Of a DNA stretch of 38,062 bases, positions 5,690 to 24,938 are shown piece by piece. The notes beneath the pieces were generated by a model, which saw nothing but the letters and a program-made list of their open reading frames with translations, was not told the origin of the DNA and ran no database searches. Where the stretch lies: positions 1 through 38,062 of the forward strand of contig CANSAF010000024.1 of the NCBI GenBank assembly GCA_947644645.1, written 5' to 3'. The first letter of the stretch is position 1. Every line of letters starts with the position of its first letter. Origin of the DNA: an uncultured Sporosarcina sp. (GTDB lineage Bacteria > Bacillota > Bacilli > Bacillales_A > Planococcaceae). The position numbers and the translations under genes were made by a program.

Positions 5690-5800
5690 AACAAAAAAAC
5701 CTGATTACAAAAAATGAAAGTTGTCATTTTCTGTAATCAGGATATTTAAGGCTCCTGGTAGAAACCCTTTAGCCGTATTCTAAAGGTTATACAGTACAAT
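5690..5800 (-). promoter_or_regulatory. Adenine (purine-class) riboswitch with intrinsic terminator, pbuE leader
   Basis: On the minus strand the aptamer runs from about 5794 to 5731. P1 is CTGTA/TACAG, followed by the conserved TATAACC, a P2 arm CCTTTAG/CTAAAGG, GTTTCTACC, and P3 AGG/CCT around AGCCTTAAATA. It closes with TGATTACA, where U replaces the C of guanine riboswitches, so adenine is predicted. The terminator CCTGATTACA.../...TGTAATCAGG with seven U (5741-5693) reuses the 3' aptamer strand. In the pbuE paradigm adenine binding therefore prevents termination and turns the gene on. Confidence 0.93.
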
Positions 5801-5816
5801 ATTCTTCTAAAAAATT

Positions 5817-5850: not shown

Positions 5851-5901
5851 AATAAAATAGCTGTCTAGGAAGTCCAATTTGTAGACTTTCTGGACAGCTT
5901 T
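5851..5901 (-). terminator. Terminator of nadCA
   Basis: On the minus strand AGCTGTCCAGAAAGTC pairs imperfectly with GGACTTCCTAGACAGCT, and ATTTTATTT follows. It shares the AGAAAGTCTA core seen in three other terminators of this window. Confidence 0.75.
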
Positions 5902-5911
5902 GAAAACAAGT

Positions 5912-6871
5912 TTATCCAATCGCGACCATACGATCAATCGACAGTTTGGCTTTTTCTCTGATGTCTTCTGGAACAGTAATCTCTGGTTGATTATTCTTTA
6001 GGGCTGCGAGGACTTTTTCGAGTGTTATCATTTTCATAAATGGACACACTGCTTCGGGATTAGCCGCTACAAAGTGCTTTTCTGGATTTTGTTTTTCCAT
6101 TTGATGAATGATTCCGACTTCCGTTGCGACAATAAATTCTTCAGCCGTTGAGATTTTAGACTGCTTTAGCATATTACCTGTCGATAAAATATGCGTCTTT
6201 TCTTCAGGTAAAATCCCTTCAGACTTTAAATACATGCTCGATGTTGAACAACCACATTCCGGGTGAATCAATAATTCTGCCTCTGGATGTTCAGCAAGTA
6301 CTTCATCCACTTGTCCAGCTTTAATCCCCGCATGGACATGACATTCGCCCATCCAAATATGCATATTTTCGCGTCCTGTTTCATTCTTTACAAATTCCCC
6401 AAGAAACATATCTGGTAAAAAAAGAATTTCTTGCTCTTCGGGAATCGACTTCACGATTTCTACAGCATTTGAAGATGTGCAGCAATAATCAGTCTCCGCC
6501 TTCACTTCAGCAGTTGTATTCACGTAAGACACAACAACAGCGTCTGGATATTCTTTTTTCCATTCGCGTAATTGTTCAGCAGTAATTGAGTCTGCCAATG
6601 AACAGCCCGCCTCTAAATCTGGTAGTAATACAGTCTTTTCTGGATTTAAAATAGCAGCCGTTTCCGCCATAAAATGAACCCCACAAAACACAATCACATC
6701 TGCCGTTGTTTCTTCAGCCGCTCTTGCAAGTGCCAAGGAATCTCCAAGTACATCCGCAATATCTTGAATTTCCGGCAACTGATAATTATGTGCAAGCAAA
6801 ATAGCATTTCGCTTCTTCTTCCATTTTTCAATCTCCGCGATTAAACTTTTTTTCTCTTCTGCTAGTACCAT
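5912..6871 (-). CDS. nadA: Quinolinate synthase NadA
   Basis: A 319-residue quinolinate synthase, which condenses iminoaspartate with dihydroxyacetone phosphate in de novo NAD synthesis. The [4Fe-4S] ligands appear as Cys90 (LEAGCSLAD), Cys177 (GECHVHAG) and Cys276 (AVCPFMK). AHNYQLPEIQDIAD near residues 27-40 and HPECGCS near 203-209 are family blocks. The start is the ATG at 6871, one base after the nadC stop (TAAAATG), with GAGGGGG inside the nadC tail as ribosome site. A TTG at 6889 would overlap that site. The arrangement means tight translational coupling to nadC. No nadB (L-aspartate oxidase) is adjacent. Confidence 0.95.
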   Translation of the reverse strand: MVLAEEKKSLIAEIEKWKKKRNAILLAHNYQLPEIQDIADVLGDSLALARAAEETTADVIVFCGVHFMAETAAILNPEKTVLLPDLEAGCSLADSITAEQLREWKKEYPDAVVVSYVNTTAEVKAETDYCCTSSNAVEIVKSIPEEQEILFLPDMFLGEFVKNETGRENMHIWMGECHVHAGIKAGQVDEVLAEHPEAELLIHPECGCSTSSMYLKSEGILPEEKTHILSTGNMLKQSKISTAEEFIVATEVGIIHQMEKQNPEKHFVAANPEAVCPFMKMITLEKVLAALKNNQPEITVPEDIREKAKLSIDRMVAIG

Positions 6872-19931: not shown

Positions 19932-20942
19932 ATGATAAAAAACGAAGTACAAAGAATACCATTTATAATTAAATTGCTAGGTAGCGTTTTAGCATTATTA
20001 TGTATGTTTGTCATTGCCAATATTTTTGGGGCTGCAAATATTGAGGCGAAAGAGATTTGGCTTGCATTTTTTTCAAGCTCTTCCGAAGAAAATAATTCGA
20101 TTATCCGCGAAATTCGATTACCGCGGGAACTGGCTGCAATATTTGTTGGGGCTGCCCTCGCTGTTTCCGGAGCCGTTATGCAAGGCATGACTAGAAATCC
20201 ACTCGCTGATCCTGGTTTACTCGGTTTGTCTGCTGGAGCAAATGCAGCTTTGGCAATTACAATTGCCTTTCTTCCTGCTGTAAATTATTTTGGCATTATG
20301 ATTGCATGTTTTATCGGTGCCGCAATTGGCGCTGGTATGGTTTTTGGCATTGCCGCGATACAAAAAGGAGGGTTTTCTCCATTTCGAATTGTTTTAGCCG
20401 GGGCCGCAATATCCGCTTTTCTTTATGCAATTGCTGAAGGAATCGGACTCTACTTTAAAATTTCAAAAAACATTTCAATGTGGACTTCTGGCGGAATGGT
20501 GGGCACTTCTTGGGGACAACTCCAAGTGATTATTCCATTTATTTTAATAGGCGTTTTGCTGGCGATGTTACTTTCTAGACAACTTACCATTCTTAGTTTG
20601 GATGAAGAAGTAGCGGTTGGTTTAGGACAAAATACAAAGAAAATAAAATTCTTTTTATTTATTGTCATTACATTACTTGCCGGTGCTGCCGTTGCTTTAG
20701 TTGGAAATATGGTTTTTATCGGTCTAATGGTTCCCCATATTGTACGCGCGATGGTCGGAACAGATTATCGTTTAATCATCCCTATGTCCGCAGTTATCGG
20801 GGCAACTTTGATGTTATTCGCGGACACATTAGGGCGGACCATTCATGCACCTTATGAGACGCCTGTTGCTGCTATCGTTGCTTTAATCGGTTTACCTTTC
20901 TTCTTAGTAATTGTGCGTAAAGGAGGTAAAGCCTTTTCATGA
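19932..20942 (+). CDS. Iron-siderophore ABC transporter permease (FecCD family), first subunit
   Basis: A 336-residue, roughly ten-helix FecCD permease. Family blocks are IREIRLPRELAAIFVGAALAVSG (split around the first coupling region), MTRNPLADPGLLGLSAGAN and GLMVPHIVRAMVG near the C-terminus. I choose the ATG at 19932 (MIKNEVQRIPF). The open frame back to 19863 would run through a hairpin and add a non-family N-terminus. The ribosome site is weak (GATGAGA). It overlaps the second permease gene by 4 nt (ATGA), so the two subunits are made together. Confidence 0.9.
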   Translation: MIKNEVQRIPFIIKLLGSVLALLCMFVIANIFGAANIEAKEIWLAFFSSSSEENNSIIREIRLPRELAAIFVGAALAVSGAVMQGMTRNPLADPGLLGLSAGANAALAITIAFLPAVNYFGIMIACFIGAAIGAGMVFGIAAIQKGGFSPFRIVLAGAAISAFLYAIAEGIGLYFKISKNISMWTSGGMVGTSWGQLQVIIPFILIGVLLAMLLSRQLTILSLDEEVAVGLGQNTKKIKFFLFIVITLLAGAAVALVGNMVFIGLMVPHIVRAMVGTDYRLIIPMSAVIGATLMLFADTLGRTIHAPYETPVAAIVALIGLPFFLVIVRKGGKAFS

Positions 20943-22541: not shown

Positions 22542-23021
22542 TTATTTATGATAAGGCTCACCCTTCATAATTCTAAACGCCCGATACACTTGCTCCATTA
22601 AAATTAACTTCATCATTTGATGCGGGAAAGTCATCTTGGAGAATGAAAGCAGTTCATCAGCACGTTTGTAAATAGAATCGTGGAGACCGAGTGATCCGCC
22701 GATAACAAAAACGACTTTGCTGCGACCATACGTCATGAGCGCTTCCATATCTGTTGCGAGTTGTTCTGATGTTTTCATTTTCCCTTCAATTGCGAGTGCA
22801 ATGACATATGCATCTGTTGGGATTTTAGCTAAAATGCGATCTGCTTCTTTCTTCTTCACAAGTTCCATATCCGCTTCACTCAATGATTCAGGCGCTTTTT
22901 CATCTGCCACTTCGACTAAATTCATTTTTGCATAGGATTTTAAGCGTTTATCGAACTCATCCATGCCCATTTTTAAATACTTTTCCTTTAATTTCCCTAC
23001 AGTTATGATTGTAATATTCAC
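22542..23021 (-). CDS. rlmH: 23S rRNA (pseudouridine1915-N3)-methyltransferase RlmH
   Basis: A 159-residue SPOUT methyltransferase modifying helix 69 of 23S rRNA. Family blocks are [14 protein letters not shown] at the N-terminus, FVIGGSLGL (SAM-binding knot) near residue 103, [24 protein letters not shown] and the invariant C-terminal GEPYHK. The GTG at 23021 gives the standard 159-residue length and has AAGGTGGAT upstream. The open frame to 23075 would add 18 unrelated residues. The upstream region carries a DnaA-box cluster, as reported around the homologue yydA in B. subtilis (from memory). Confidence 0.96.
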
Positions 23022-23025
23022 AAGT

Positions 23026-23361
23026 TTATCCACCTTTTTTTCGTCATTATAAACACTTTTTATACACATATCCACAAGTTATAACTACATATTGTGCCCG
23101 ATTATTCGTTCGCCACTATATGCGAAACTCATTTTAATCCTGTTATTAACATGTGGATAACTTTTTATTTTAAATGTAAACGCCATCATTTTTAATATTT
23201 AAATCACTTTTTAATAAATCACTTTAACCCTTGCGATAATTAGATTCGTTGACCTTTCGCATGATTGATTTACAAGCTTTTATAGATCAAATAAAGTTAT
23301 TCACAATTTCTAATAATTGTCCACAATCCATTTTAAATTAAGCTTTTAAAAGTTTTCCACA
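23026..23361. promoter_or_regulatory. DnaA-box cluster upstream of rlmH
   Basis: Three perfect TTATNCACA boxes lie at 23060-23068 (TTATACACA), 23152-23160 (minus strand TTATCCACA) and 23297-23305 (TTATTCACA). One-mismatch boxes are at 23026-23034, 23068-23076, 23317-23325 and 23353-23361. Most face the same way. The region is AT-rich and has no gene. Confidence 0.75.
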
Positions 23362-23416
23362 CTATAAAAATACAGTCGTCAACTTCTAAGCTTATTTTAA
23401 CACGATTCGACAGGAA

Positions 23417-23700
23417 GATTTACTTTTGATTGCGGATGAATTTACATTCCTTGCATACGAATTTACAGCGCGTCCTTATGAATTTACATCAATGACGTCT
23501 GAGTTTACAGTCCCCGAATGAGTTCACAACGAATACGCCCCAGTTCACAGCAAGTCGCGGCGAGTTTACAGCAATCGCTCACAAGTTTACAGCCCCGACA
23601 TGAGTTCACAACAAAGACGTTCCAGTTCACGGCAAACAGCAGCGAATTTAAATCGACGACGTCTGATTTCACAAGCCCGACACGAGCGCACAACAAATCA
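23417..23700. repeat. Nested degenerate repeat array: 21-bp units in 82-bp super-units
   Basis: About 14 units share a core near GAGTTTACAGC (variants GAATTTACA, CAGTTCACA). Starts fall at 23417, 23438, 23459, 23480, 23501, 23520, 23541, 23562, 23583, 23602, 23623, 23644, 23665 and 23684. The step is 21 bp, except three 19-bp units. From 23480 these form a higher-order repeat of 21+19+21+21 = 82 bp: copies at 23480 and 23562 and a partial copy at 23644. By hand the first two copies agree at about 60 of 82 positions. The non-triplet 82-bp period argues against coding. Confidence 0.85.
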
Positions 23701-23742
23701 GAGCTTTCCAGAAAATCTATAGCTAGACTTTCTAGAAAGCTC
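23701..23742 (-). terminator. Terminator hairpin of htrA
   Basis: On the minus strand GAGCTTTCTAGAAAGTCTA pairs with TAGATTTTCTGGAAAGCTC around a 4-nt loop. The T-run after it is poor. It carries the shared AGAAAGTCTA core and directly abuts the repeat array. Confidence 0.7.
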
Positions 23743-23753
23743 CATTAATTACC

Positions 23754-24938
23754 TTAAAATGTTGTGCCGTCTTCTAAAATCATTTCTAATTCAAGTACTT
23801 CGCCTTCTCGATATACTTTAATTTTCATTGATTCGCCGACTTCTTTTTCATTATACAAATGCTTCCTTAAAGAAATCATATCTGTAATTGATTCGCCGTC
23901 CATTTCGACAATGACGTCATAACGCTCCACACCTGCAAGATCTGCTGGTGAATCCGGTACGATATCATTGATGACGACGCCTTCTTTAACTTCTTTCGGC
24001 AATTTTAAAACGAATTGTTGTTGGATTGGGATGCTTGCTAAATCGATGAGCGTCACACCCATCGTAGGACGGATAACTTCTCCGTGTTTTTCCAACTTCT
24101 CAATAATCGGTGCAGCTAAGTTAATTGGGATGGCAAGTCCAATTCCTTCTACTGTTTCCTGCGAAATTTTCATCGAGTTAATGCCGATTAATTCGCCGGC
24201 TAAGTTAATGAGTGCGCCACCTGAGTTTCCAGGGTTAATGGCTGCGTCTGTTTGTAAAACGTCTGCATACCAATCAACACGTCCGTCTCGGTCAAAGTCG
24301 ATTGGAATAGAACGGTCTTTTCCCGAAACTACACCGACTGTAACGGAGCCTGAAAATCCTAAACCAAGTGGATTTCCGATTGCGATCACATTTTCTCCGC
24401 GTTTTAATAAATCAGAGTTTCCAAATTCCGCAACAGCGTCGACTAACTCATCATCAATTTCAATGACCGCTAAATCAGTCCATATATCACTTCCGATTAG
24501 CTTACCTTCTGTTTTAGTTCCATCGTCAAATGTAATTTCAAGCATTTCGGCATTCTCTACAACATGATGATTCGAAACGATATAAGCCTTGCCGTTAGCT
24601 TTCTTATAAATAACGCCTGAACCTGTTCCTGTTTCCTGAGTTGTTTCTGTAGAAGACCAGAAATCATTTACTGTTTGCAAATTGGTTACGCCGACAACAG
24701 TATGCGCCGTTTTATCGACGACATCTGTTATATCCGTCCGAATATCCGCGTAAATTTGTTTTGAAGATGACCCTTGATCCTTTAAAACTGATTCAGGAGG
24801 TGTAATATTTTCTGTTGGTGTTAAAATCCAAACAAGCAATGCGCCAACGACTACGCCTATAATTCCAGCTAAAAAAGCCCCCATTGGATTAGATTTAGGC
24901 TTTCTGGGTGTCGGGTTAAAATCATCCATTTCCATCAT
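23754..24938 (-). CDS. htrA: HtrA-like serine protease with PDZ domain (YyxA/HtrC type)
   Basis: A 394-residue membrane-anchored quality-control protease. A short cytoplasmic N-terminus with Pro/Lys is followed by one membrane helix (MGAFLAGIIGVVVGALLVWI, about residues 19-38). The trypsin-like domain has the catalytic His in SNHHVVENA, Asp in SDIWTDLAVIEI and Ser in NPGNSGGALIN. A PDZ domain near residues 290-390 includes IVPDSPADLAGV. Three ATG codons lie at 24938, 24935 and 24929 behind GAGGAAAGG; the true start is one of these. It follows walJ at the end of the wal cluster, the place held by yyxA (htrC) in B. subtilis. Confidence 0.93.
   Translation of the reverse strand: MMEMDDFNPTPRKPKSNPMGAFLAGIIGVVVGALLVWILTPTENITPPESVLKDQGSSSKQIYADIRTDITDVVDKTAHTVVGVTNLQTVNDFWSSTETTQETGTGSGVIYKKANGKAYIVSNHHVVENAEMLEITFDDGTKTEGKLIGSDIWTDLAVIEIDDELVDAVAEFGNSDLLKRGENVIAIGNPLGLGFSGSVTVGVVSGKDRSIPIDFDRDGRVDWYADVLQTDAAINPGNSGGALINLAGELIGINSMKISQETVEGIGLAIPINLAAPIIEKLEKHGEVIRPTMGVTLIDLASIPIQQQFVLKLPKEVKEGVVINDIVPDSPADLAGVERYDVIVEMDGESITDMISLRKHLYNEKEVGESMKIKVYREGEVLELEMILEDGTTF

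Follow-up and report, generated by a model that had tools for sequence, protein, structure and literature searches.

Short direct repeats set at whole turns of the DNA helix form dispersed arrays in the genome of an uncultured Sporosarcina, preferentially just beyond transcription terminators. The arrays have in common that a core is repeated in one direction at whole-turn distances, and the same spacing is seen with unrelated cores in other species of the genus. The array from which the analysis started lies in a stretch of 38,062 nucleotides, here called the window. From the cores, their spacing, their dispersal and their position beyond terminators, all of which are observed directly, we infer that the arrays are phased sites for one or several putative sequence-specific DNA-binding proteins. 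To this tentative reading we assign a probability of roughly 0.4.

Results

A phased array in the window

The array and its surroundings contain the following features:

23438 to 23692, + strand: phased array of 13 units GARTTYACA with an 82-bp super-repeat (motif and lag analysis)
23703 to 23740, - strand: terminator-like hairpin between htrA and the array, with a weak T-run (by reading)
23754 to 24938, - strand: gene for an htrA-type serine protease, its 3' end toward the array
22542 to 23075, - strand: rlmH, with the limits of the listed ORF; the gene may actually begin further in
23014 to 23361, no strand assigned: DnaA-box cluster, a neighbour only, outside the array family

The 13 units match GAGTTYACARC in at least 8 of its 11 positions, and they start at 23438, 23459, 23480, 23501, 23520, 23541, 23562, 23583, 23602, 23623, 23644, 23665 and 23684. 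The steps between them are 21, 21, 21 and 19 bp, in a cycle that is run three times, and the identity of positions 23417-23700 with themselves at a given lag is highest at 82 (0.60), followed by 21 (0.47), 103 (0.43) and 61 (0.41). The spacing of 21 bp with a 19-bp unit at every fourth step, and the super-repeat of 82 bp, are therefore as a preliminary description of this DNA had them. That description counted fourteen units, of which 13 were recovered; the remaining one, GATTTACTT at 23417, has 4 of 9 core positions. It further stated that the core is kept where the rest has diverged, which agrees with neighbouring units that have the same core and differing spacers, and it likened this to selection for phase on one DNA face; a link between the spacing and the helix does seem to exist. 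All units of the array are direct, and the only match of 8/11 on the opposite strand, at 23375, is outside it.

A chance origin of the array is excluded, because 359,751 bp of shuffled loci from the same genome, the control that had been proposed, gave no chain. Tandem Repeats Finder, run at its lowest score, returned no row over the array. That the array is not a coding repeat, as had been stated, follows from the absence of any stop-free frame over its first six units and from the 19-bp steps, which shift the frame; a 76-aa ORF overlaps part of it. RNA folding of the array, on both strands, was no better than that of shuffles, and a comparison with plasmid and phage sequences gave no match at an E value of 0.01. 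The Rfam scan of the window reported only a purine riboswitch, at 5714-5814 on the minus strand.

The same core at 26 places in the genome

With the DNA of the window array as query, eight further matches were found, at seven places in the same genome. A pattern made of two GAGTTYACA units gave 60 exact matches in this genome and none in the reversed control; when up to two mismatches were allowed, it gave 94, against 3 in the reversed control, at 26 places. For the 25 places beyond the window array the surrounding stretches were taken for a chain test, and 23 of the 26 loci pass its threshold, giving 24 chains (L110, L112 and L123 give none). The chains have 102 steps of 21 bp, 27 of 19 bp and 9 others. 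Four successive steps total 82 bp in 51 of 68 cases, while 5000 shuffles of the steps inside the arrays averaged 29 such cases and never exceeded 44, and a stretch summing to 82 bp is present in 15 of the 18 arrays with at least four steps. Steps are constant at 21 bp in L118, in L131, in L230 of genome G185 and in the TTCAGTGC arrays described below, and constant at 20 bp in the arrays of genome G183.

The arrays of this genome occur in both orientations. Their last unit carries TTC in 19 of the 24 chains, whereas among inner units 40 of 112 do so (p = 2e-4), from which it follows that GAGTTYACA arrays have a distinct 3' end. One array (L107:2513-2642), overlapping the start of a 302-aa ORF call, has an altered core, GAGTTCTCA, which is exact in 5 of its 7 units, as if replaced in concert. 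GAGTTYACA cores, and also the ATGTCCG cores described below, are often followed by CAAT or CAATCG, as if a half-motif were shared.

Among 67 congeners none has a match to the GAGTTYACA core. In other genera it was matched in 2 of 193 genomes by a single dimer per genome (steps of 18 and 17 bp), and the reversed control gave five hits in one genome; the two dimers are probably due to chance. A three-unit pattern matched 31 stretches in a collection of 84,980 species with one genome each, where the stretches are pattern matches only and where records near the present genome are possibly lacking. In viral contigs the same pattern matched six times. L172 and L174 are inside long open frames, and L175 is a 20-bp tandem repeat. 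The other three (L173:6745-6880, L176:4815-4925 and L177:245-380) share palindromic TGTGAGTTCACA sites about 20-24 bp apart in noncoding DNA; these probably belong to an operator or origin of a phage and were left uncounted.

Arrays are enriched just past terminators

It had been proposed to compare the positions of arrays with those of terminators. An inward-facing terminator is found within 80 bp of 16 of the 23 array loci, compared to 35 of 94 random intervals drawn in non-divergent gaps (p = 0.009), so that arrays are enriched just past terminators. Among 20 hand-picked arrays from all species, with both arrays of the window included, 11 directly follow a terminator and 4 precede one, whereas 5 have none nearby. 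The 20 loci that could be classed by gene orientation are convergent in 7 cases, codirectional in 12 and divergent in 1, a bias that is not significant (p = 0.054 for convergent and 0.13 for divergent gaps). Of the 24 arrays of this genome, 8 share DNA with an ORF call, and three of these ORFs are long (302 aa at L107, 486 aa at L121 and 164 aa at L128); the starts of array-overlapping ORF calls are taken to be mis-set.

These positions bear on the possibility that the arrays act in RNA, as an element of the 3' UTR such as a sponge for a protein or a small RNA. At a few loci (such as L111 and L113) transcription of one flanking gene would cross the array and end at a two-way terminator that both sides share, as this would have it. 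With most arrays past an inward terminator, with arrays in both orientations and with a window array that lacks RNA structure, we consider it unlikely.

Beside several arrays the terminators are GAAAGT...ACTTTC hairpins, a repeated word in terminators, which is found at 103 places in this genome and at 13 in the reversed control, i.e., about eight times more commonly. In some bacteria it is the uptake words that are the repeated word of terminators. A link between arrays and GAAAGT hairpins was dropped, because the hairpins are commoner than the arrays.

The neighbouring DnaA boxes

The gene order is htrA, rlmH, dnaB, where rlmH is what we take to be yydA; further neighbours are putatively walRK and purA, and this setting would suggest Bacillales. 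The ten DnaA-like boxes of the cluster, of which three are exact, match TTATNCACA with at most one mismatch; over the whole window there are 56 such matches, not above the chance mean of 51.8. When the gap between htrA and rlmH was read in four congeners (L078, L079, L082 and L085), DnaA-like boxes were present and the array was absent. Since B. subtilis has a DnaA-binding region upstream of yydA (PMC4447404), the cluster is probably ancient. The tie between array and DnaA-box cluster that the preliminary description drew is not supported, given a core family at 26 places and four gaps with boxes alone, and we take the position of the array beside them for coincidence. In L079, L082 and L085 a small ORF with paired cysteines lies between htrA and rlmH, of which seemingly only a stretch like its last part remains in the window, at about 23080-23400 (by reading).

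Among the 67 congeners, 29 htrA loci were scanned and none has an array. Arrays are not kept in place across congeners, and this counts against our preferred reading.

Other cores with the same spacing

To find arrays without a preset motif, a de novo scan was made for 9-mer cores with at most one mismatch between neighbours and at least four units in noncoding DNA, where a chain counts as noncoding when no stop-free frame of 90 codons passes through it. In the genome under study the scan gave two further core families, TTCAGTGC and ATGTCCG, for which pattern searches found 10 loci each, with 22 and 24 exact dimers, respectively. A TTCAGTGC array is also present in the window:

1284 to 1376, + strand: second array, of the TTCAGTGC family, with five units in 21-bp steps, just past the terminator of ORF 15-1205

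Its units start at 1284, 1305, 1326, 1347 and 1368, and the last ones are degenerate.

A search of relatives had also been called for, and comparable arrays are present there with other cores: in 8 of 10 sampled congeners (1.6 Mb), with AAACGACYAAA, AGTGCAAGCAAA, GTTGCATAC, CGGTGATAA, GTTGGACTA, CAAAAGTCC and more, at steps of 19-21 or 40-42 bp. When the 18 noncoding congener chains are sorted into lag bins from 12 to 69, the 21 bin has 13, the 39/42 bins have 3 and 2 lie elsewhere, where the five hits of G183 sit in one 20-kb stretch and three of them are copies of one block. One of two chains at lags 24-28 is a plain 28-bp tandem repeat. In L236 of G183, near 5894-6270, a tandem block of 150 bp has 20-bp CAAAAGTCC arrays nested inside it. 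No de novo array was found in G191 and G228 (40 kb each); G191 still holds 26 exact GTGCAAGC dimers. Twenty genomes of other genera, five of which supplied just 0.5-3 kb, gave one array (AATAGACAAT, about six units) in 307,505 bp, and 100 kb of E. coli gave none.

A k-mer profile of noncoding DNA has peaks at 20/21, 40/42, 63 and 82, with extra peaks, from few loci each, at 66/67 (a CRISPR-looking array), 92 (an array with steps 21,21,21,29) and 28. The CRISPR-looking array, L205:18069-19942 (about 58.1-59.9 kb of C2 in the genome under study), has a period of 66-67 bp and a repeat with ATTTCAATCCACGCACCCATAAAGAGTGCGAC.

To exemplify how the spacing recurs, consider G184 and G232. In G184 an array with an ATGTCC-like core has steps of 21,21,21,19,21,21,21,19, and in G232 an array with a GTTGCR core repeats 21,21,19,21 in a cycle; the two cores are unrelated, yet both arrays cycle as 21,21,21,19. 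G232 has 72 exact GTTGCRTNC dimers (the reversed control gave five hits in one genome), and among the matches listed, 58 of the 72 dimers at 14 loci, offsets recur modulo 82 in the 8 loci with at least three dimers. In one array of G206 the steps are 21,21,21,29, which makes 92 bp, or nine turns, so that the long step holds one extra turn (by reading).

Some core families are shared by species among the 68 genomes searched. AACGACYAA is found in 3 (G173, G205 and G206; reversed control, single hits in 16/68), GTGCAAGC in 8, chiefly G173, G191, G205 and G206 (control, single hits in 2/68), and ATGTCCG in 12, five of them with single matches (control likewise 2/68). Matches to GAGTTYACA and TTCAGTGC are confined to the species under study.

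Cores, spacers and local duplication

Between adjacent units the identity is 0.88-0.96 at 6 of the 9 core positions and 0.78, 0.67 and 0.47 at the other three, values that are inflated because the chains were picked by core; at the ten positions after the core it is 0.25-0.42 at nine and 0.59 at one. Variation at core positions 3 (G/A) and 6 (T/C) consists mainly of transitions. The spacers have a GC content of 0.52, while the AT-rich flanks have 0.36. This difference, together with the helical period, would be expected if the arrays served sequence-directed bending or flexibility of the DNA with no specific protein; exact 8-9-mer cores common to many loci are more than bendability needs, and such an explanation is improbable.

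Spacers of different loci are on average nearly unrelated, with an identity of 0.31-0.34 in register and 0.26-0.31 out of register. Some pairs of loci are more alike: L111 and L113 are 87% identical across 78 bp, and a further three pairs 76-78% across 118-140 bp, in a comparison from whose BLAST part L117 is missing. Unrelated spacers between neighbours would also be the mark of a guide-like RNA array, of TIGR or CRISPR type, in which the 8-12-nt repeats part variable guide spacers, and the lengths of repeat and spacer are near those of TIGR arrays. That the arrays are dispersed, mostly past terminators, that their spacers are copied in 82-bp blocks, that the main family has no alternating pair of repeats and that no match to the Nop domain (PF01798) was found in the genome, when the control search matched in 4 of 14 genomes, leave this very improbable.

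The copying of spacers is seen when units 82 bp apart within a locus are compared. Their spacer identity is 0.50 (51 pairs), and the pairs are partly duplicates. Where both units were called and their spacers are at least 60% identical, differences are seen at 18 of 207 core positions and 63 of 216 spacer positions (p = 6e-8), a test that is biased because both units were selected by core. When the partner is instead taken as found, cores differ at 58 of 270 and spacers at 90 of 286 positions (p = 0.009), where in 6 of 30 pairs the partner is uncalled and looks like a chance flank match or a shifted unit. At 70% spacer identity the partner-as-found values are 16 of 99 and 19 of 106 (p = 0.85). 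These numbers hint at selection that acts on the core once units have been duplicated.

Decay after slippage had been put forward as the null model. As the whole account it was rejected: neighbours share cores yet have unrelated spacers, and units that had all decayed to chance-level spacers would leave no findable core. What stands of the model is that local 82-bp duplication occurs; it copies the 19-bp step along with the rest and therefore accounts for part of the 82-bp rule.

From here it is a short way to selfish or drifting repeats of the kind of STAR elements, with cores spread and homogenised by copying or biased repair, no role for the host, and post-terminator DNA simply where repeats are tolerated. 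The local duplication, the locus pairs that are similar beyond average, the abundance of a core within one species (60, 22 and 72 exact dimers), the loci that differ by species and the congener htrA loci without array all speak for it, as does the likeness of STAR in location and growth (PMC3532100). It leaves unaccounted for that one spacing rule holds for unrelated cores in several species and that a filler may be one turn long (21,21,21,29), and it fits poorly with between-locus spacers that are on average nearly unrelated. Since loci are not kept between species and the constraint on the core is not firm, it is a close rival, possible although somewhat less probable than phased protein sites.

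Discussion

According to the explanation that we prefer, the genome would have over 40 scattered sets of sites, the window array among them: 23-26 sets with its core and 10 with each of the two others. On these sets the putative protein or proteins would line up next to one another along a single face of the helix, with one subunit or group per two turns. A point against this is that three cores in the same genome would call for more than one protein or more than one specificity. The arrays are favoured just beyond terminators and grow by local 82-bp duplication; they are gained and lost between species, the core changing fast while the spacing rule stays. A nucleoprotein block at the ends of genes might then hinder read-through transcription, as a roadblock or boundary, or anchor the nucleoid.

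The usual helical repeat of DNA is 10.5 bp per turn, and 82 bp make 8 turns at 10.25 bp per turn. A value below 10.5 would fit DNA that is wrapped or overwound, and the 21,21,21,19 cycle, which is common to the species under study, G184 and G232, may reflect DNA wrapped, or slightly overwound, with sites in groups of four. The value of 10.25 is not general, because some arrays keep a constant 21 or 20 bp.

The preliminary description had offered a binding array for a nucleoid, replication or segregation protein as one reading. The description is supported in part, by cores that are kept where spacers differ and by a spacing that looks helical; a tie to the DnaA-box cluster is unsupported.

A bolder version, which we regard as doubtful, is that the genus has a new chromatin-like system in which a fixed ruler, four sites in 8 turns or about 82 bp, is combined with a rapidly changing DNA specificity. 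Species-specific arrays would be coated beyond the ends of genes, one architecture being re-coded in each species, in a manner that may be likened to the fast-evolving satellite and centromere proteins of eukaryotes.

If unrelated arrays obey one spacing rule throughout a genus, then it is the rule that is kept and not the sequence. The arrays would in that case be the readable footprint of a bacterial complex that organises DNA or blocks transcription, and a bacterial example of an architecture that stays constant while each species rewrites the motif. The phase itself provides a motif-free way to find such arrays in other genomes.

Comparison with known systems

The repeats and spacers of CRISPR arrays are about 25-40 bp, whereas the unit here is only 19-21 bp, in accordance with the preliminary description, which had set the array apart from CRISPR. 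Plasmid iterons and phased operators are direct repeats about two turns apart that are bound by one protein. Iterons are bound by a replication initiator whose gene is close by, and they belong to a single origin or centromere, in contrast to the dozens of chromosomal loci and the several cores found here. REP and BIME elements are known for gene ends. They are dispersed repeats (PMC2817692, PMC3733652). REP are palindromes with regular spacing and alternating orientation, whereas the present cores are non-palindromic and run in one direction.

TIGR arrays have 8-12-nt repeats and 9-nt spacers, some up to 12 (PMC12045711), and the repeats of 8-12 nt and spacers of 9-12 nt are a likeness. In TIGR-Tas systems edge and loop repeats alternate and are processed to 36-nt RNAs, and a Tas protein with a Nop domain is encoded next to the array. 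Unlike TIGR arrays, those described here are dispersed, have no Nop protein match and show no dual repeat: edge/loop-type alternation of two repeats was looked for in the GAGTTYACA family and was absent, and a PF01798 search of the whole genome gave 0 matches, a search that a very divergent Tas could escape.

Among the open-access papers surveyed, nothing like these repeats was found except STAR. STAR elements are direct repeats scattered over intergenic DNA, in which the core is conserved and the spacers vary; their loci differ per species and grow and shrink locally (PMC3532100), and in all this the present arrays are like them. Here, too, the loci are dispersed, intergenic and different between species, with the ORF calls at 8/24 arrays noted above. 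STAR has one GC-rich core of 14 bp and spacers of 40-44 bp (PMC3532100), whereas the cores described here vary by species, the spacing is in whole helical turns and the spacers are about 8-12 bp, or 10-12 bp after a 9-bp core at steps of 19-21. With one mismatch, the STAR core TGTTGNGGCCC occurs once in the window (at 20401), against a chance expectation of 0.97, and it is absent from the array. In behaviour the array set is nearest to STAR, yet by its core and the length of its spacers it stands apart from it.
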